Of a DNA stretch of 24,559 nt, positions 1,633 to 21,235 are shown in pieces. The translations under genes and the position numbers were made by a program. The stretch is taken from positions 1 through 24,559 of IMG/VR virus record IMGVR_UViG_3300042453_002738. The stretch is one strand, 5' to 3'. The DNA is from a virus. The notes beneath the pieces are model-generated. The model made no database searches. It worked only from the letters and a program-made list of their open reading frames with translations, and was not told where the DNA came from. The first letter of the stretch is position 1. Each line of letters starts with the position of its first letter.

Positions 1633-1643
1633 AATTTCTCCAA

Positions 1644-1675
1644 AAATAATAGCCTATAGATATAGGCTATTATTT
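1644..1675 (-). terminator. Perfect 15-bp inverted repeat between glycosyltransferase and fibre operon
   Basis: AAATAATAGCCTATA at 1644-1658 is repeated as its exact reverse complement at 1661-1675, leaving 2 nt in the centre, so a few inner pairs would open to form a loop. On the minus strand the stem ends in a run of five T (three belonging to the stem) and then GGAG. It lies after the glycosyltransferase stop and could terminate that transcript. It also begins at about the predicted start point of the late promoter at 1679-1686, so it may be the 5' terminal stem of the fibre mRNA. Confidence 0.6.
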
Positions 1676-1678
1676 AAA

Positions 1679-1686
1679 TATTTAGG
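1679..1686 (-). promoter_or_regulatory. Late-type promoter element CCTAAATA
   Basis: The minus strand reads CCTAAATA. It matches the elements ahead of gp22 and gp23 in this window and resembles the T4 late -10 element TATAAATA. With T4 geometry (start 6 nt beyond the element) transcription begins near 1673, giving a leader of about 41 nt that starts with the inverted repeat and ends with GGAG-AAATT-ATG. It would drive the three fibre-type genes. Confidence 0.45.
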
Positions 1687-3362: not shown

Positions 3363-3749
3363 TTATAAATTGGTTGGACCGCCTTTGTCTAAAGACTTTT
3401 TAAGATTGTCTAGATCTTTTGGTCCAATAATATTTAGCACTTCTCTAGCTTTACTTTCACTGTATGAAAAAGCTTGTTTTATTAAGTTTATTTTATCATC
3501 TTTTTCTTTTCTAAGCCAATATGAATATCTTTTCTTTTTTCTTACACCCAGTCTATAAAAATCAAATTGAGCTTTTGAATCTAGAATTGGTTTGCAATTC
3601 ATTTCATTTGCATAAAAAATAGTATCATTAAAATATGATAAGCAACGATTTACTACATATGCCGGATATTCTTTTGCGGCAACCTCATCATTATCCATGA
3701 GAGGTTTTTTGTCATAATTGATACTGTTGAGATATTCTTTTAATTCCAT
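3363..3749 (-). CDS. 62: Clamp-loader small subunit, gp62-like (short form)
   Basis: A 128-aa protein between the gp44 homologue and regA, exactly where T4 encodes gp62. The motif YPAYVVNRCLSYFNDTIFYANEMN (residues about 29-52) corresponds to the small clamp-loader subunit conserved in T4-like environmental phages. A DFYRLGVRKKKRYSYW stretch follows, where T4 gp62 has the comparable YLMAAVPRGKRYGKW. The protein would join four gp44 ATPase subunits to load the gp45 clamp. It is much shorter than T4 gp62 (187 aa), but short forms are typical outside the close T4 relatives, so I do not read it as truncated. Its ATG shares a base with the gp44 stop (TAATG), implying coupled translation. Confidence 0.82.
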   Translation of the reverse strand: MELKEYLNSINYDKKPLMDNDEVAAKEYPAYVVNRCLSYFNDTIFYANEMNCKPILDSKAQFDFYRLGVRKKKRYSYWLRKEKDDKINLIKQAFSYSESKAREVLNIIGPKDLDNLKKSLDKGGPTNL

Positions 3750-4693
3750 TATGCAAACTCACAATCCATCATCAATTGGACCAATAGGGCCATCGTATTA
3801 ATTTCTTGATCTGCTGCAAAAGCAGATTTATATTGATATTCAGCAATATGAAGAATTGCTGCAGGTACTGAATTTGGTTTTAAAGTTGTATAAAGTTCTG
3901 TGTAGAGTTTTTTAAAGAACTCTGTTGTATTGAGATCTAAATTTTGCACCACCCATTTACGGCACGAAGTAAAATCTTTTGACTTCATGTATCCCATGAG
4001 TTCTTTGTAGGATTCACTGCTACCATGTGAAAGAATTCCAACATCAATTTTTCCAGAAGAAGAATACTTTTGAAGTTCGTTGATAATACGACGAAAATCT
4101 GGAAAATGTTTTTTGATGAGATTAGCGACAACTTGCTGTTCATATGGTACATTCTCTGTTTTAAGTATATATTCAACTCTATCCATCATTGCTTTTGCAA
4201 TTTGTGCTTTTTCTGCAGTTGGAACAGTAAAATCTATACCAGTACAGCGAGAATGCAGAGGATCTATAACTCTATTTTTATAATTACATGTCAAAACAAA
4301 TCTACAATTTGTATGAAACTCTTCAATCGCACCACGCAATGCTGGTTGAATTGATTGTGGATTTGCATAATCAAACTCATCAAGAATAATTACCTTTAGA
4401 GTACCGTTCAACGAAACTGTAGATGCGTATTGTCTAATTTTAGTTCGAAGAGTATCGATACCATTTTCTTCTGAACAGTTGATTATCATGGAATCGTAAT
4501 TTAGATCTCTAGCAAGAGCACGGGCAACCGTAGTTTTGCCCGTGCCTGCCTTGCCATAAAACAACATATTTGGCATTGCCCCTTCTTTAATCATACCATT
4601 AAAAACTGTAGTAAGATCAATCGGGAGAATGCATTCAGACAAAGACTTGGGTCTATACTTTTCGACCCAAAGCACATTATTAATATCAGACAC
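3749..4693 (-). CDS. 44: Sliding-clamp loader ATPase, gp44
   Basis: A 314-aa AAA+ protein (T4 gp44 is 319 aa). It opens with WVEKYRPKSLSE, the usual clamp-loader start. It has Walker A GKAGTGKT at residues 47-54, Walker B VIILDEFD at 101-108, a sensor-1 region TCNYKNR near 135-141 and the SRC arginine-finger motif at 148-150. It would hydrolyse ATP to open gp45 and place it on primed DNA with gp62. The start codon is GTG at 4693, preceded by GGAG with a 6-nt spacer, and it begins 2 nt after the gp45 stop. It is part of the gp45-gp44-gp62-regA unit read from the promoter near 5525-5552. Confidence 0.96.
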   Translation of the reverse strand: MSDINNVLWVEKYRPKSLSECILPIDLTTVFNGMIKEGAMPNMLFYGKAGTGKTTVARALARDLNYDSMIINCSEENGIDTLRTKIRQYASTVSLNGTLKVIILDEFDYANPQSIQPALRGAIEEFHTNCRFVLTCNYKNRVIDPLHSRCTGIDFTVPTAEKAQIAKAMMDRVEYILKTENVPYEQQVVANLIKKHFPDFRRIINELQKYSSSGKIDVGILSHGSSESYKELMGYMKSKDFTSCRKWVVQNLDLNTTEFFKKLYTELYTTLKPNSVPAAILHIAEYQYKSAFAADQEINTMALLVQLMMDCEFA

Positions 4694-7565: not shown

Positions 7566-8608
7566 TCTTCATCCTTTGACAAGGCGCTATTATATGCCGA
7601 GTTTATGATCTCTGCAAGTGTATTCTTGTTGACGGACTTCTCATTAATTGTTTCTAATTCTTCGTGGAGAAGTTGAAGGGTGTCTTTATGAATATCGACA
7701 GCAACAAGTTCTGGATTTGAACTTACTTCTTCTGCAATTTGAAGTTCTGCCACTCCAGCTTCATAAAATTTGTCGATATACTTTTCAAACTGATTTTGCT
7801 TAGTTTTGTTTTTGATAAAAATTTTGACATATTTGTCTTTGTACTCGGCATAATTTAATTTTTCCGTGGAGTCTTCGTTATAGTCAAGCGTATAGAAAAG
7901 CTTTTCTGGATTTTGTACAAATTCAAGAGTGCGGTTCTTGAAATCAAAGACATGGAAGCCCTTCTCTTCCCACACATCCGAATAAGCCATCTGATATTGC
8001 GTACCGAGATAATGAATGTTATCCCTGCTAGACTTAACATGATAATGCCCAGTAAGAACATACTCAAACTTGTCGAAGTGCTTATGATCATATCCTTGCT
8101 CTATAAATACGCCACGAATACTCTGGAATCCGCATAATTCTAAATGACCCAGTAAAATAGAACATGTTGTGTTTTCCAAAAACTCTGAAACAGCCATTTC
8201 ATTTTCTGGATTTATCCAAGGAAGCAAAGCAACACAACCATCTTTTAGATTTATCTCTGTTGGTTCAGAGTATACATTCCAATTTGGATAATAAGAAACT
8301 AATTCATTTAAAGAATTTACTTTATTAGTATTTCTAAAAAATGTATCATGATTCCCACATATAATGTGTACTTTGATACCCATTTCTCTTAATGGTTCAA
8401 AAAATCTTTCTCTGACAGCATTTAGTGTTTTAAAATTAATATATTTTCTTCGATCAAATAGATCGCCTAAATGAAAAATTGTTGTAATATTATTGTTTTT
8501 GATATATGGAAATAACTGATTTTCAAAAAAAGAAAGTGTATATTCCAATACAATCGTAGAATCGGCTTTATAACCAAAATGTGTATCGTTAAGTATTATT
8601 GCTTTCAT
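7562..8608 (-). CDS. 47: Recombination endonuclease subunit gp47 (Mre11-like)
   Basis: A 348-aa calcineurin-type phosphoesterase (T4 gp47 is 339 aa). Metal-binding motifs appear in order: NDTHFG with D8 and H10, GDLFDRR at residues 48-54, GNHD at 85-88, LLGHLEL near 152-158 and TGHYH at 186-190. This is the full two-metal nuclease set of the Mre11/SbcD family. The C-terminal third is the divergent capping and gp46-binding part. It pairs with gp46 in end processing. Its ATG shares one base with the gp55 stop and its own stop overlaps the gp46 start, so gp55, gp47 and gp46 form a coupled unit read from the gp55 promoter. Confidence 0.96.
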   Translation of the reverse strand: MKAIILNDTHFGYKADSTIVLEYTLSFFENQLFPYIKNNNITTIFHLGDLFDRRKYINFKTLNAVRERFFEPLREMGIKVHIICGNHDTFFRNTNKVNSLNELVSYYPNWNVYSEPTEINLKDGCVALLPWINPENEMAVSEFLENTTCSILLGHLELCGFQSIRGVFIEQGYDHKHFDKFEYVLTGHYHVKSSRDNIHYLGTQYQMAYSDVWEEKGFHVFDFKNRTLEFVQNPEKLFYTLDYNEDSTEKLNYAEYKDKYVKIFIKNKTKQNQFEKYIDKFYEAGVAELQIAEEVSSNPELVAVDIHKDTLQLLHEELETINEKSVNKNTLAEIINSAYNSALSKDEE

Positions 8609-9180
8609 TATTCAAATATATCTAATTTTGATGATTTCTTTTTTTTCTTTATTTTTGATTTTTTTGGATTTGTCATTTCATCAAATCGTTCCATATCGGA
8701 ATCAGTTAATCCAAAAAAATCTTTTCTTCCTATATCTACTCCAGCATAAACTTCATTAAACCAATTTTGAAAGTCTTTATTGTTTTGTTGTTCGGCAAAT
8801 TTAAATTGAGTGTATTTTTCTTTTTTTTCTTTGTTTATGATACGAACAAAAGAAAACCAGCATATTTGGGTTAAATAACCAAACGGGCTGGTAGAAAGTT
8901 TTGGATCAAAGTTATCTATGTATGTTATGCAATTTAAAACACCATCTGATACCATTTCTTCTCTGTATGGATAATTTGCAAAATTAGGTCTATAAGAAAG
9001 TCTTGATGCTATTTTTAAAATACATTCGCCTATGTAATCAGGCAATTTTGGTTTTTTGCGTCCTGCATTTTCTGCATCTTTTAACTTTTTTTTATATTCA
9101 ACCAAAGCATCGTAGAGAGCTTGATTATCTACATAATCAGCATCAGATGGTTTGGATTTCTTTTTCTTTGGCTTTTTCAC
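8608..9180 (-). CDS. 55: Late-transcription sigma factor gp55
   Basis: A 190-aa protein (T4 gp55 is 185 aa). A lysine-rich N-terminus is followed by a sigma region-2-like core: GECILKIASRLSYRPNFANY near residues 51-70, EEMVSDGVLNCITYIDNFDP near 74-93, then SPFGYLTQICWFSFVRIINKEKKEK near 97-121. T4 gp55 has matching features ([64 protein letters not shown]). With host RNA polymerase core, gp33 and the gp45 clamp it recognises TATAAATA-type late promoters. The tail is basic. The start is GTG at 9180, the only candidate before the conserved core. The predicted sigma70 promoter places transcription start on that GTG, so translation would be leaderless. Confidence 0.92.
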   Translation of the reverse strand: MKKPKKKKSKPSDADYVDNQALYDALVEYKKKLKDAENAGRKKPKLPDYIGECILKIASRLSYRPNFANYPYREEMVSDGVLNCITYIDNFDPKLSTSPFGYLTQICWFSFVRIINKEKKEKYTQFKFAEQQNNKDFQNWFNEVYAGVDIGRKDFFGLTDSDMERFDEMTNPKKSKIKKKKKSSKLDIFE

Positions 9181-15961: not shown

Positions 15962-17470
15962 GTGGATTTAGACGTTGAATCTATTGATGAAGTACGATAT
16001 TATGTGAAAACCGAAAAAGGAATTAAACAAGAATTGAGAGATTATTTCTCATTCATGGTTCCCGGTGCTCAATATATGCCATTGTACAAAAAGCGCATAT
16101 GGGACGGAAAAGTTCGGCTCTATGATATTCTTTCATCCACTCTGCCTAGAGGTCTAAAAACTTATTTACAAAAATTTTGCAAAGATCGTGGTTATGAGTT
16201 AAATATAAAGGAGACTCAGAACCCATTATGTGTTACCGAGGATCAACTTCAGGATTTTTACGAATCATTGAAGGTTTCGGTACGCAAACAACCAGTCAAA
16301 ATGCACGACCATCAGAAACAGGGTATTTTGCATGTATTGAACAATCATCGTTCGGTCTTGATATCACCGACTGGCTCAGGAAAAAGTCTTATTATATACG
16401 TATTGGTTCGATATCTTCAAAAGGTATTGCGTACAGATCGCAAAATCCTAATTTTAGTTCCAACAGTCGGTCTCGTCAATCAGATGGAGGCCGATTTTTT
16501 TGATTATTCTTGTCAAGATAAATCATGGTCTTGCAAGAAGTATATACACAAAATATCTGCTGGCGTAGATAAAGAAACAAATAAACAGATAGTAGTATCC
16601 ACTTGGCAATCCATATACAAATTGCCCAGAGAATGGTTTGATCAATTTGATGCTATATTTTTTGATGAATGTCACCAAGCAAAAGCAGAATCTATAAACT
16701 TTATTGGTCAAAAACTCACCAAGGCTTGGTTTCGTTGTGGGACTACAGGAACATTACAACAAACACAAGCTCATAGATTGAGTATTGAAGGAATTTTAGG
16801 TCCAGCAGTTCAATTTATTCATACAAAGAATCTAATGAATAAAGGGTTGTTGGCTACACTCGGTATAGATTGCATTGTATTAAAATATACAGATCAAGAA
16901 AAACAATTATTAAAAAAACAAAAATATGCAGAAGAAATTAAATGGATAATAACTAATAATAAGAGAAATGAATTCATCTGGCAACTGGTCTCCAGAACAA
17001 AGGGCAATACGCTTGTACTCTTCAATTATGTTGAAGCGCAAGGGAAGCCTCTCTACGAACTTTGCAAAGAAAAAGCGGGAACACGCAAGGTTTATTTTAT
17101 CTCAGGCAAAACAGAAGCAGAAGCCAGAGAATACATTCGAAGAATTATTGACTCTGAAAAAGATGCCATCTTGGTTGCTAGTTACGGCACTACTTCTGCT
17201 GGGATTAACATTGTCAATCTTGATAACATTATCTTTGCTTCCCCAACTAAATCAGTAATAAGACTTTTACAAAGCATTGGTAGAGGATTGCGTGTATCAG
17301 AAAAAAAGAAAACTTTGAAAGTATTTGATATTGTTGATGATCTTTCTTGGAAATCATATAAAAATCACGTGTTCAAACATTTTGAAGAGCGTGTTAAAAT
17401 TTATAAAAAAGAAAAATTTGATTTTAAAATATTTTCTATGGGTTTTACAGACCTGACACAAGATAAATAA
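15962..17470 (+). CDS. uvsW: DNA helicase UvsW
   Basis: A 502-aa superfamily-2 helicase (T4 UvsW is about 503 aa). The N-terminal domain carries FSFMVPGAQYMP and RIWDGKVRLYD near residues 29-55, like T4 FFSFEADGYRFNP and NWDGRIRLLD. Helicase motifs follow: HQKQG near 117-121, Walker A SPTGSGKS at 135-142, DECH at 235-238, GTTGT near 260-264 and the arginine-finger motif QSIGRGLR at 437-444. It unwinds branched DNA and R-loops, driving the switch from origin- to recombination-dependent replication. The start is GTG at 15962; an ATG at 15960 is out of frame and stops after three codons. No strong Shine-Dalgarno is seen, so coupling to uvsY is likely. Confidence 0.95.
   Translation: MDLDVESIDEVRYYVKTEKGIKQELRDYFSFMVPGAQYMPLYKKRIWDGKVRLYDILSSTLPRGLKTYLQKFCKDRGYELNIKETQNPLCVTEDQLQDFYESLKVSVRKQPVKMHDHQKQGILHVLNNHRSVLISPTGSGKSLIIYVLVRYLQKVLRTDRKILILVPTVGLVNQMEADFFDYSCQDKSWSCKKYIHKISAGVDKETNKQIVVSTWQSIYKLPREWFDQFDAIFFDECHQAKAESINFIGQKLTKAWFRCGTTGTLQQTQAHRLSIEGILGPAVQFIHTKNLMNKGLLATLGIDCIVLKYTDQEKQLLKKQKYAEEIKWIITNNKRNEFIWQLVSRTKGNTLVLFNYVEAQGKPLYELCKEKAGTRKVYFISGKTEAEAREYIRRIIDSEKDAILVASYGTTSAGINIVNLDNIIFASPTKSVIRLLQSIGRGLRVSEKKKTLKVFDIVDDLSWKSYKNHVFKHFEERVKIYKKEKFDFKIFSMGFTDLTQDK
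17462..17469 (+). promoter_or_regulatory. GATAAATA late-type element ahead of the 213-aa gene
   Basis: GATAAATA at the end of uvsW fits the nATAAATA form of T4-like late promoters. T4 geometry gives a start near 17475 and a 15-nt leader that contains AAGGAGG. It overlaps the uvsW stop region, so chance is possible. Confidence 0.35.
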
Positions 17471-17473
17471 TTT

Positions 17474-17481
17474 AAAGGAGG
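17474..17481 (+). promoter_or_regulatory. Strong Shine-Dalgarno AAAGGAGG
   Basis: This is the strongest ribosome-binding site in the window, 8 nt before the ATG at 17490. It fixes that start and shows the host ribosome uses the usual anti-Shine-Dalgarno sequence, which makes the near-leaderless genes elsewhere notable. Confidence 0.75.
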
Positions 17482-17489
17482 ACATTTAA

Positions 17490-18131
17490 ATGTCCGATTC
17501 TATTCCCGAAACTGATTTGTCGGGTTCCTTGAAAGTCATTCGTTTATTGACTGGTGAAGAATTAATAGGAACTGCTATAGAAAATGATAATTCTATTATA
17601 ATAAAATTTCCAGCAAGACTGGAATCATATATCACAAAAGATAATATGAACAATATGATAGAATATGTTAAATTAACAAATTATCTTTCAAGTATAAAAA
17701 ACTTTGAAGCAAAAATTTTTAATACATCAATAGTATATTGTGGAGAGCCACAAGAAGAACTTGTAAAAATGTATAACGCATATTTATTGGCAATTCAGAG
17801 CGATCCAAAATCTATAATGACATCTTCTGCAAGCGATTCTGAAAATTCCAATGATCCGGGATTACTATTATTAAATGATCTTTTTACGAATGATGATTTT
17901 GTAAATTTTGTCAATGATTTGATAGAAACTTATGAAGATTCAGAATCTTTAAATGACGAAGAAGACGTAGAATCGGTTATAGAGGCCATCGAAGAAGAGA
18001 TGCCCAAACCCCAACCCAAGCCAAAGAAACGCTCCAGAGTCAAACCAGAAACGAATAAGCTACCATATAATCCCGAGAAGCCACCTGAAAATCCAGAAAG
18101 CTGGTCTGACAACCCTTCTGATTATTTTTAA
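17490..18131 (+). CDS. Conserved phage-type protein with Sm-like N-terminus and acidic, Pro-rich tail
   Basis: A 213-aa protein. Residues about 13-48 (LKVIRLLTGEELIGTAIENDNSIIIKFPARL) follow the short beta-barrel pattern seen in Sm-like or LSM-type small proteins of T4-like environmental phages (L-x-T-G-E-x-x-I-G). The middle is polar and strongly acidic (residues about 130-170). The end, from EEMPKPQPKPKKRSRVKPE onward, is a basic, proline-rich and presumably disordered linker finishing in SWSDNPSDYF. I do not know its function. It sits after uvsW with its own strong ribosome-binding site and overlaps the convergent tail-tube-fold gene by 4 nt. An RNA-binding role is a guess from the fold pattern only. 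Confidence 0.6.
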   Translation: MSDSIPETDLSGSLKVIRLLTGEELIGTAIENDNSIIIKFPARLESYITKDNMNNMIEYVKLTNYLSSIKNFEAKIFNTSIVYCGEPQEELVKMYNAYLLAIQSDPKSIMTSSASDSENSNDPGLLLLNDLFTNDDFVNFVNDLIETYEDSESLNDEEDVESVIEAIEEEMPKPQPKPKKRSRVKPETNKLPYNPEKPPENPESWSDNPSDYF

Positions 18132-18655
18132 GCGGTATTTTTTAAATTTGATGGAGCATCTGGGTTTATTGTATAGTGTGAATATTTAAATTTGCATGTG
18201 GCTTTTTGAACCAATGCGTCTGCACTATCCGATTGAAACATGAATCCACTCAACGCTACAGGTATTATATGGTAAAATTTAAAAGTTGTTGGAGGGGAAT
18301 CGTTAAAACCATCATAAATTAATAAATTTGCTTGATGATGCCAATCTTGATAATTTAAATTATGATCATAATCATTTGCAATATTTGTTAAATTTCTCAT
18401 CCAAGAATAAATACTTTTCCAATTTTGTAAATTAGAATCTATAATAAATTCAACGTTCAACAATTCAAATTGAATTGATTGAGTGGCAACTGGAATAGTT
18501 GTACCAAGAGTAGTGGGCTGTGGTTGATCACCTATTGAAATGCCGGGAATATTTACTTTTTGACACATCAATTCCATTTGTTTAGTTCCACGACCAAAAA
18601 TTAAACGAAAGTAACTATTGTATAGTGGATTTATATTTGGTGAACATGTGGTCAT
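18128..18655 (-). CDS. Tail-tube-fold virion protein (gp19/tube-initiator-like)
   Basis: A 175-aa protein. FRLIFGRGTKQMELMCQKVNIPGISIGDQPQPTT near residues 17-50, then IQFELLNVEFIIDSNLQNWKSIYSWMRNL near 61-89, match a family of T4-like phage structural proteins whose members have the pattern CQSVNIPGIS, a proline-rich loop, then F-x-V/I-D-x-x-L-x-N-x-x-x-I-x-x-W. That layout belongs to the tail-tube fold used by gp19-type tube subunits and tube-initiating baseplate proteins; I cannot decide between them. It has no Shine-Dalgarno sequence. CATAAATA lies 5 nt before the ATG, so T4 geometry puts the start on the A of the ATG. It is next to gp23 but behind that gene's terminator. Confidence 0.65.
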   Translation of the reverse strand: MTTCSPNINPLYNSYFRLIFGRGTKQMELMCQKVNIPGISIGDQPQPTTLGTTIPVATQSIQFELLNVEFIIDSNLQNWKSIYSWMRNLTNIANDYDHNLNYQDWHHQANLLIYDGFNDSPPTTFKFYHIIPVALSGFMFQSDSADALVQKATCKFKYSHYTINPDAPSNLKNTA

Positions 18656-18660
18656 AAAAA

Positions 18661-18668
18661 TATTTATG
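18661..18668 (-). promoter_or_regulatory. CATAAATA late-type element, predicted leaderless start
   Basis: The minus strand reads CATAAATA, between the gp23 terminator and the tail-tube-fold gene. Five T residues separate it from the ATG. T4 geometry (start 6 nt beyond the element) puts transcription start at 18655, the first base of the start codon. Confidence 0.45.
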
Positions 18669-18670
18669 GT

Positions 18671-18704
18671 AAAACAAAAACCTCCCGATTACTCGGGAGG
18701 TTTT
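18671..18704 (-). terminator. Intrinsic terminator after gp23
   Basis: CCTCCCGA at 18681-18688 and TCGGGAGG at 18693-18700 form a perfect 8-bp GC-rich stem with a 4-nt loop. On the minus strand it is followed by TTTTTGTTTT, the classic intrinsic layout, 27 nt beyond the gp23 stop. The plus-strand side also carries TTTT, so some bidirectional activity is possible. Confidence 0.9.
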
Positions 18705-18727: not shown

Positions 18728-20131
18728 TTAAAAAGTTCCGCCGTGGAGACTCTTAACAGCAGTCAAACGGTAGTATTGGTTCAAGCCAGAGGTGAGGGTT
18801 TCACCGTCTGGAATACCTGCGCTGTTGATGACGTAGGGGTTGGCTACGACACCATAGCGAGTCTTGAAGGCAATACGTGGTTGGAAAGTGTTAGGATCAA
18901 CTGCACGTACCATTTGTAGCGGAACGTATGGGCAGTAGAACAATCCAGCGTCGTATGGGGATTCACCCTTATAACCTACGCAGAAGAAGTTATATCCTGC
19001 TGGGCTATATGGATCAATGTACACACGGATCTTACCGTTGATTACGCCAGCAAAGGTGCTTTGAGTATCATCAACGTTAAGTTGTGGTGCAATTGCTGGG
19101 CTTAGGCTCATGAAACCAGACATTGCGAGTGCTGCAGCGGTATCGCTGTCGCAGATGATGAAGTTACCACGACCACGGCGAGTTTCCTTGGCGAGGTAAT
19201 TGCATTCACGCTCAATTTGGAAGCTAAGACCACGGAAACGTTCAGCAGACCAACGACCGTCTGAGTCAATATCGAGATCGTATTCACCATCATTAGCAAG
19301 ATCGCTTTGGACTGAACCTTGACGAGCAACGTAGTAAATTGTTTTGACGATTTCGCGGTTGATTTCAGCAAGAATTTCTGTGCTGAGAAGATTTGCGAGT
19401 TCGGCTTCAGCGTCAAGACCGTGAACAGCCTTAAGATCTTGTGCCAATTCGACGGTGTAGTTGCTGCTTAGAGCGCGAGTCTTTGCTTGGACAGCAACAC
19501 GGTCGATTGAGAATGCCATTTGATTCCAGTTGGCATATGGTGAAGTCTTGCCGATTCCTTCGCCCTGTGAAGTCAAAATACCTCTAAGAGCATTAAAAGC
19601 AGTTAAGCCGGGTTTGACACCGCTTGAAAAAGCAGCAGACAAGCCTTTTCCTGTAACATAGCTTGAATCAAGTGTCCAACCTGAACCACCGAATGCAGCT
19701 TGTGGCTCTTGGAACATGGCTTCAACGTAGCCAGCGTTTCCGTAGGTTGTGCCAACGGTTCCGCCATAAGCATAGTTAGCGCGCATTGCAAAGATGAGGC
19801 CAGTTGGAGCGGTCATTGGTTGAACGCCGCAAATGTCATAAGCCATCAAATTGGGCATTGCACGGCGAACCAAGCTGATGAGAACTGGATCATATCCAGA
19901 TACAGCAGCTGTATTGTAGCCGGTTGAGGTTGCTGGACCACCGAGATTGTTTCCAGAAGCCATGTCTTCAACGAGGTGTTGTTGACGAATAGCTTGTTCT
20001 TGGTTCTCTAAGAGAACTGCGGTTACTTTCTTACGATAGTCATCTTGAATGGAAGGAAGAGCTTCGTGACCAAGCACTGGCTCCCACTTCTCGGTTAATA
20101 CGTCATATGGTGTGTTTTCTGCAAATTGCAT
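18728..20131 (-). CDS. 23: Major capsid protein gp23
   Basis: A 467-aa protein (T4 gp23 precursor is 521 aa). Hallmarks are VLISLVRRAMPNLMAYDICGVQPMTAPTGLIFAMRANY near residues 82-119, TYGNAGYVEA, a long HK97-fold body, and RIAFKTRYGVVANPYV near 425-440. The N-terminal 55 residues up to QQHLVE are helical and likely the prohead delta domain. LVE (53-55) fits the (L/I)-x-E site cut by T4 gp21, so cleavage there is inferred. AGGAG precedes the ATG, and TCTAAATA gives a predicted 22-nt leader. Codons are visibly richer in G and C than in neighbouring genes, consistent with very high expression. A strong terminator follows. Confidence 0.97.
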   Translation of the reverse strand: MQFAENTPYDVLTEKWEPVLGHEALPSIQDDYRKKVTAVLLENQEQAIRQQHLVEDMASGNNLGGPATSTGYNTAAVSGYDPVLISLVRRAMPNLMAYDICGVQPMTAPTGLIFAMRANYAYGGTVGTTYGNAGYVEAMFQEPQAAFGGSGWTLDSSYVTGKGLSAAFSSGVKPGLTAFNALRGILTSQGEGIGKTSPYANWNQMAFSIDRVAVQAKTRALSSNYTVELAQDLKAVHGLDAEAELANLLSTEILAEINREIVKTIYYVARQGSVQSDLANDGEYDLDIDSDGRWSAERFRGLSFQIERECNYLAKETRRGRGNFIICDSDTAAALAMSGFMSLSPAIAPQLNVDDTQSTFAGVINGKIRVYIDPYSPAGYNFFCVGYKGESPYDAGLFYCPYVPLQMVRAVDPNTFQPRIAFKTRYGVVANPYVINSAGIPDGETLTSGLNQYYRLTAVKSLHGGTF

Positions 20132-20158: not shown

Positions 20159-20166
20159 TATTTAGA
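20159..20166 (-). promoter_or_regulatory. Late-type promoter TCTAAATA for gp23
   Basis: The minus strand reads TTTTCTAAATAATTTTAC, closely like the gp22 element. T4 geometry gives a start at 20153 and a 22-nt leader carrying AGGAG, the same leader length as at gp22. Confidence 0.55.
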
Positions 20167-20177
20167 AAATTTTGTGT

Positions 20178-21200
20178 TTAGACCTTTTTATTAAGTCTTC
20201 CGATAGCTCCAACATAATTTTCTACTAAAGTTGTTGGTGCTTGTTTTACTGGTGCAAATGTTTGTTCTGGCTGAGACAATTTTGATGGAGCTGAAACCTT
20301 CGAAGCATTTACGTAATTTTCTCTAATTGCTACAAGCTTTTCACGATATTCTTCTGGGGTTTCAAAAGAAACATTTTCCATCAAGTTTTGTAGTTTTGCA
20401 ACTTGTGTATCAGCAAGGTCTCTTGTTTCTGCTACGAAAATACCAGCACATTCAGTCAAAGAAACTTCTTTCTTGAGAGAAATGTTGTTATTTACTGCTT
20501 CATTGAGTTTTTCTTGCAATTGTCTATTTTGTTCATAGAGTTCATCAAGAACATTATATTTTTCTGCTGGAACATCAATATAATGGTTTTCAAAAAGATT
20601 CTTTAGACCACTAATAAAGTTTTCAGCAATTTGTGTCTTAATTCCTTGTTCAACGGCAACAGCATTATCTGTCATCCATTCTTCAACGACATAATCAAGA
20701 TAATCATCAACTTTTTCTACAAGAGCTTCAGTTAAATTATCAAGATATTGTTTTACATTTTGGTCGGCGGATTCAGAAATTACTTCAACGACTTTTTGAA
20801 CTCTATCTGCAATCGAAGCCTCAAAAATAGCTTCAAGTTTTACAATTAGATCTTCGTTAATATTTTCTTCACCGAGAAGAGAAACGAGAGCGTCGCGGAA
20901 TTCTGCGCGGGCTTCTTCTTGCATTTCTTCTTCGCCTTCTTCGGTTTCTTCGGTTTCTTCACCTTCTTCTTCGGGCGAAGAATTGGCCATTTTTTGACCC
21001 CCACCCATTGAAAGTTGTGCTGACATAGGGACAACTGGAGCACCGACTGGAGTTGTCGATGGCATTCCGGTTACGACTGGTGACGCTGACATAGAACCTC
21101 TGCCTGTAGCATCATAATCTGGCTTTCCATCAGAAACAGCACCCAAGCCCATTGCTTGTGCTACTGCTTCGGAAATTGTTTTTTTGTTTGTATTTTTCAT
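20178..21200 (-). CDS. 22: Prohead core scaffold protein gp22
   Basis: A 340-aa protein (T4 gp22 is 269 aa) in the canonical place between the prohead protease and the major capsid gene. It has a disordered N-terminus, then a Glu-rich block at residues 77-97. Long helices follow (about 98-230, including DALVSLLGEENINEDLIVKLEAIFEAS and repeated amphipathic segments), with a C-terminal tail rich in Ala, Ser and Pro. Scaffold proteins of this class form the prohead core and are digested by gp21. Several (L/I)-x-E sites occur (IFE-A near 128, LTE-A near 157, LNE-A near 237). AAAGGA precedes the ATG, and TCTAAATA lies upstream. Assignment rests mainly on synteny and composition. Confidence 0.85.
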   Translation of the reverse strand: MKNTNKKTISEAVAQAMGLGAVSDGKPDYDATGRGSMSASPVVTGMPSTTPVGAPVVPMSAQLSMGGGQKMANSSPEEEGEETEETEEGEEEMQEEARAEFRDALVSLLGEENINEDLIVKLEAIFEASIADRVQKVVEVISESADQNVKQYLDNLTEALVEKVDDYLDYVVEEWMTDNAVAVEQGIKTQIAENFISGLKNLFENHYIDVPAEKYNVLDELYEQNRQLQEKLNEAVNNNISLKKEVSLTECAGIFVAETRDLADTQVAKLQNLMENVSFETPEEYREKLVAIRENYVNASKVSAPSKLSQPEQTFAPVKQAPTTLVENYVGAIGRLNKKV

Positions 21201-21227: not shown

Positions 21228-21235
21228 TATTTAGA
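21228..21235 (-). promoter_or_regulatory. Late-type promoter TCTAAATA for gp22
   Basis: The minus strand reads ATTCTAAATATTTTACATC. T4 geometry places the start at 21222, with a 22-nt leader that includes AAAGGA before the ATG. It is in the gap between gp22 and the 224-aa gene. Confidence 0.55.

Follow-up and report, generated by a model that had tools for sequence, protein, structure and literature searches.

A conserved hairpin at the predicted 5′ end of a late operon message in uncultured T4-like phages

The DNA analyzed here, hereafter the window, is the 24,559 nt (24.6 kb) stretch of a T4-like phage from IMG/VR virus record IMGVR_UViG_3300042453_002738. Its T4-like markers are homologs of the gp55 late sigma factor (8608–9180), the clamp loader, RegA, and UvsY. 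On the minus strand, a glycosyltransferase gene (1700–2926, stop codon 1700–1702; phrog_13126) is followed by a structural gene of the tail-fiber region encoding 131 amino acids (1237–1632), which is the first gene of a late operon. The ATG of a second gene, encoding 329 amino acids (248–1237) and lacking a PHROG match, overlaps the 3′ end of the first, and the two are presumably carried on the same message. The sequence-only reading had called the message for the 131 amino acid product a fiber mRNA. That name is weakly supported, since the protein matches phrog_3304 (L-shaped tail fiber assembly) only at 6e-4, compared with 1e-18 for phrog_1084, a family of unknown function.

The junction between the glycosyltransferase gene and the operon contains a compact series of elements, all on the minus strand. 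A gp55-type late promoter, CCTAAATA, occupies 1679–1686, with its CTAAATA core at 1679–1685. It conforms to the expected arrangement of TATAAATA or CTAAATA about 12–13 nt before the start, and the phage encodes the corresponding sigma factor. In phage Aeh1, the C of CTAAATA is placed at −12 (PMC1524935); by this rule the predicted late +1 is at 1673, 12 nt past the C and at the very position proposed from the sequence alone. Two 15 nt arms, AAATAATAGCCTATA and TATAGGCTATTATTT, separated by 2 nt, form an inverted repeat at 1644–1675 without a mismatch. The repeat is followed by two T residues, a GGAG Shine-Dalgarno (SD) sequence (1638–1641), and the ATG (1632–1630). Five T residues (1642–1646), three of them inside the 15 bp arm, make up a run between stem and SD that varies among relatives. 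Both the order of promoter, repeat, GGAG, and ATG and the coordinates of the repeat had been read correctly.

The inverted repeat is the longest in the window for loops of 2–10 nt, and first-order Markov sequences of window length (n = 100) gave a longest repeat of 14 bp, against 15 bp here. The sequence-only reading had the message begin with 13 of the 15 paired bases; 13 arm bases do remain downstream of the predicted +1, and with a real loop 12 of them pair, giving a hairpin, with 12 bp and a 4 nt loop, that starts at nucleotide 1 of the RNA. The predicted fold of this late RNA leaves the SD unpaired and has an energy of −13.3 kcal/mol (z = −3.45), a stability that none of 200 shuffled sequences reached. 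A search of Rfam at gathering score gave no match in the window, the best score at the element being 17.7 bits on the plus strand, against a gathering score of 36.

The spacing between late motif and ATG provides a second line of evidence on the position of the start. Across eight contigs (748 ORFs, 215 motif cases in all), this spacing has a sharp edge at a predicted leader length of 0: 48 genes fall exactly at 0, whereas lengths −3 to −1 together account for 4. Scrambled motif pairs (n = 19) placed 0–3 genes at this length, and CTAAATA is the motif used by 7 of the 48. For this lineage, the sharp edge lends the +1 rule independent support, and we infer a start at 1673.

In these 48 genes, transcription is predicted to start at the A of the start codon. 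One lies in the window at 18655 (minus strand; CATAAATATTTTTATG) and 47 in contigs G001, G002, G004–G007, and G009, so that late mRNAs of this group are predicted to be often leaderless. A predicted leader length of 0 also occurs in the named phages HTVC008M (10/33) and Melnitz (3/38), both counted up to base 140,000, and in P-SSM4 (2/39), with 0/34 in T4. A partial literature search found no statement on leaderless late genes in T4-like phages; leaderlessness is reportedly mentioned in a paper on the jumbo phage AR9. Elsewhere in the window, CTAAATA precedes gp23 (20159–20165) and the gene at 21200 (21228–21234), each with a predicted leader of 22 nt. A further copy (3431–3437, minus strand) lies inside the gene for the clamp-loader small subunit, with a 71 nt predicted leader before RegA. 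The motif is also found in G001 (18372) and G002 (29742), 69–72 nt before a gene of 141 amino acids; it may be kept by constraint on the coding sequence or serve as an internal late promoter. On the plus strand, at 17462–17495, GATAAATA is followed by a short hairpin (GGACAT...ATGTCC) in which the gene at 17490 has both its SD and its start codon. This layout is repeated in G001, G002, G005, and G006, and could be an SD-hiding structure.

Close relatives and two profile searches in IMG/VR yielded 40 places encoding a protein related to the 131 amino acid product. Together with the window these give 41 leaders, or 30 distinct ones after merging 11 that are identical over the last 75 nt. The order of late promoter, hairpin, GGAG, and ATG is present in 26 of the 30 and persists down to about 39%–41% protein identity. 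All 26 have the late promoter, in the form CATAAATA in leader L183, and all 26 have a glycosyltransferase gene upstream. The layout is absent from L193, L199 (which has only 126 nt before the gene), L200, and L202; L200 and L202 have other upstream neighbors. L193 carries a 9–10 bp inverted repeat centered on its CTAAATA promoter (3975–4000), with a 3 nt predicted leader and no leader hairpin. Among named phages, the profile matched HTVC008M (1e-5) and Melnitz (0.017), whose homologs have no hairpin leader; their neighbors are annotated as hypothetical proteins and were compared by annotation rather than by BLAST. The window protein itself had no match in 50,697 phage records and no relative in the genome_contigs set. 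A weak match in Limnohabitans phage DC31, where the start annotated for the gene lies 12 nt past the end of its upstream neighbor, was left out of the comparisons.

Pairing in the stem is maintained across these leaders. We aligned 24 of the 26, leaving out L004 and L170 as near-copies, and 98.7% of the cells in a 10-pair stem are paired. The shuffle mean is 94.9, and 0 of 500 shuffles were as high; because the shuffles ignore relatedness, these values are counts rather than probabilities. Sliding the partner by one to three columns reduces pairing to 25%–58%. Changes on both sides of a pair account for nine cells in four pairs and occurred in at least four separate lineages (L169, L181, L183, and L191, together with the degenerate L166). 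Wobble cells number 12 G-U and 0 A-C in the sense strand, where an A-C would correspond to a G-U in the antisense strand, and 3 cells are other mismatches. Some stems are poor: those of L169 and L170 contain A-U pairs only (L169, −3.6 kcal/mol, z = −0.47), and in L166 two of nine pairs are broken. The compensatory changes and the restriction of G-U wobbles to the sense strand indicate that the structure acts as RNA of the fiber-gene strand. This covariation marks the hairpin as a genuine RNA element of the late message, its pairing being under selection.

The element recurs at one gene rather than throughout the genome. Among 388 late motifs in the eight contigs, seven have a 5′ hairpin of −6 kcal/mol or lower, and all seven precede this gene; the version in the eighth contig, G005, is weak (−3.0). 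The sequence-only reading had suggested looking for the same layout elsewhere in the genome; it is not seen before other late genes. Random places give a hairpin of that strength in 62 of 3,000 cases, so such energies are not rare, and the informative feature is the recurrence before a single gene. A covariance model, R1, likewise found one strong match per contig in seven of the eight family contigs, with only weak matches in G005 and in reverse-strand readings; Melnitz, HTVC008M, P-SSM4, and T4 gave no strong match. A pattern scan for CTAAATA with the AATAGCC stem returned at least 119 stretches. Most of the roughly 80 matches listed belong to CTAAATAAAAATAGCCACCC...GGCTATT, a recurring element of another uncultured phage group (many of L049–L125) that does not precede an SD, and we rejected these stretches as relatives of the leader.

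A perfect dyad beside a promoter, with strongly conserved stem letters, could also be a DNA site for a regulator, or could owe its sequence conservation to a mobile cassette of promoter and stem-loop resembling a PeSL. A DNA dyad would not prefer wobbles of one strand, as observed here, and a mobile cassette fits poorly with a single strong copy in each contig and a downstream gene of one family at all 40 places. We disfavor this reading on sequence grounds and consider it highly improbable.

The spacing of the elements bears on the placement of the hairpin. The foot of the stem is 4–5 nt from the SD in 22 of the 24 aligned leaders (2 nt in L191, 3 nt in L166), and the letters in this interval differ (TTTTT, TCTTT, TAATT, ATCT, CTTTT). 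Other distances are not constant: stem to ATG varies from 12 to 19 nt, SD to ATG varies too, and promoter to stem differs by several nucleotides between clades. A fixed spacing from stem to SD with unconserved T residues would be expected of a hairpin positioned with respect to the ribosome rather than for a U tract, and its constancy while the other distances vary favors a sealed, protected 5′ leader. In 17 of the 26 leaders, including the window, the stem begins at the predicted +1; in the other nine it begins 1–6 nt later, and this overhang weakens a strictly 5′-terminal model and would lessen the shielding of a 5′ end.

We propose that the gp55-type promoter would start the RNA at, or a few nucleotides before, the foot of a roughly 10–13 bp stem-loop, beyond which lie 4–5 mostly U bases, the SD, and the AUG. 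In such a “sealed leader,” a 5′ hairpin would be followed almost at once by the ribosome, and little single-stranded leader would be left for 5′-end-dependent decay through removal of the 5′ pyrophosphate or entry of RNase E or J. The operon message would be longer lived with its ribosome site open, and if read-through RNA from the glycosyltransferase gene stopped here at all, that would be a weak side effect. We give an even chance to this account, in which a hairpin-capped leader shields the late operon message and leaves the SD open. The protective effect itself we infer from known 5′ stem-loop stabilizers: 5′ stem-loops protect the ompA, papA, and aprE messages, and B. subtilis RppH requires at least two unpaired 5′ bases (PMC3997798, PMC7509114). 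One B. subtilis case (PMC7509114) indicates that a stem too near the SD can lower stability.

Because the hairpin lies on the same strand just past the glycosyltransferase stop, it could instead be an intrinsic terminator or attenuator, at which read-through RNA from the regA/glycosyltransferase side ends at the T run, keeping the replication module apart from the operon of late structural genes. The sense direction outscores the antisense in most relatives, and 0 of 150 random window stretches score above 0 (two values of −4.5 in this background are probably the window hairpin itself, sampled). The score, which we take to follow the d'Aubenton Carafa formula, is nevertheless −4.5 for the window hairpin, exceeds 0 in 7 of the 26 leaders, and is below −15 or gives no match in 12. 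By comparison, a canonical GC-rich terminator at 18677–18704 (minus strand) scores 41.9. It follows the gene at 18728–20131, which from its translation we take to be gp23, and its sequence is nearly identical in G001 and G002. It stands upstream of the next late promoter (18661–18668), the usual order, whereas the hairpin comes after the promoter of its own late message. An intrinsic terminator has a stable G-C stem with a conserved U tract directly behind it; here the tract is broken in relatives, even though the spacing from stem to SD is conserved. We therefore reject termination as the primary role, on the score and the T-run variation, and regard this reading as possible but doubtful.

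The neighborhood keeps some form of insulation in play. With a glycosyltransferase gene upstream of every hairpin leader, and GC-rich terminators at the same place in the two homologs that have other upstream neighbors (L200, score 19.0; L202, 31.3), insulation here may be of some importance; L193, which also has the glycosyltransferase upstream, nevertheless has neither a hairpin leader nor a terminator. The pairing of hairpin with glycosyltransferase, and its absence beside other neighbors, would also allow a role tied to the junction. The sequence-only reading had proposed one hairpin with two roles, stabilizer and terminator. Half of this is supported: a conserved hairpin at the predicted 5′ end of the late message, with a free SD, stands, upheld by its occurrence in 26 of 30 leaders, by compensatory changes, and by the sense-strand wobbles, and a stabilizing role would fit it; the terminator half is weak. 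More speculatively, and with a rather low probability in our estimate, this may be one operon in an often leaderless lineage with a promoter-coupled hairpin leader, the stem set 4–5 nt from the SD. Hairpin and 30S subunit would then jointly cap the message, and read-through RNA would also be stopped, weakly, by this stem, the outcome being set by where transcription starts.

Two further readings concern the read-through RNA. For T4 genes e, soc, 49, and I-TevI, the SD is buried in long RNAs and becomes accessible in late ones (PMC3014915). A switch of this type would require promoter-derived bases in the read-through RNA to pair with the SD and block translation, and the late RNA to begin within the structure and so release it. 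In the window, opening GGAG costs 1.9 kcal/mol in the late RNA, 5.5 in the read-through RNA, and 2.8 with shuffled upstream sequence (2 of 30 shuffles as high), and L168, L175, L179, L182, and L186 show a similar effect. Over all 26 leaders, however, the means are 1.97, 2.98, and 2.60 kcal/mol, respectively, and six leaders are at or below 3/30 where about three are expected, three of the six being near-identical. Nor does the late start remove one arm of the hairpin: the predicted +1 is at the stem foot, the stem with its 12 pairs is intact in the late RNA, and the SD is outside it. We reject the switch as a family trait, the window effect not being general, and consider this reading unlikely. 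Alternatively, read-through RNA may be cut in the A/U-rich single strand immediately 5′ of the conserved stem, giving the same hairpin-capped message. The late promoter alone already accounts for such a 5′ end, and we view processing as quite unlikely.

Considered together, these data are best accounted for by a leader that would be a variant of the known 5′ stem-loop stabilizers, a modest but well-conserved regulatory element. No description of it was found in a partial full-text literature search. As a conserved, compact late leader with natural variants in stem, loop, overhang, and T run, it offers a means of telling apart the stabilizer and terminator roles. For uncultured T4-like phages, in which late regulation is usually judged by promoters alone, the leader also suggests a post-transcriptional layer of late-gene control.

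Several known systems share parts of this arrangement. PeSLs are repeated units of early promoter and terminator found between different genes. The adjoining promoter and stem-loop recall these cassettes of T4-type phages, but here the promoter is a late one and a single strong copy per contig always precedes the same gene, which by the above definition sets the leader apart. Like Rho-independent terminators of T4-like phages, such as that of gp23, it has a sense-strand hairpin followed by T residues after a gene, but unlike the gp23 terminator it has few G-C pairs, a short unconserved T run, and a position downstream of its own promoter. The leaders of T4 genes e, soc, 49, and I-TevI resemble it in that a late promoter overlaps a hairpin in a T4-like phage; in those leaders the hairpin hides the SD in a long early RNA and is lost late, whereas here the late RNA would keep the hairpin and carry the SD outside it. 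The E. coli ompA and papA and B. subtilis aprE stabilizers have a stem-loop at or near the 5′ end followed by a free SD, as is predicted for this leader, and selection at the RNA level is indicated here by the compensatory changes and sense-strand wobbles. In contrast to those stabilizers, a third of the distinct leaders have an overhang of 1–6 nt, and the hairpin is coupled to a phage late promoter and precedes one phage operon, where its effect on decay is a prediction.
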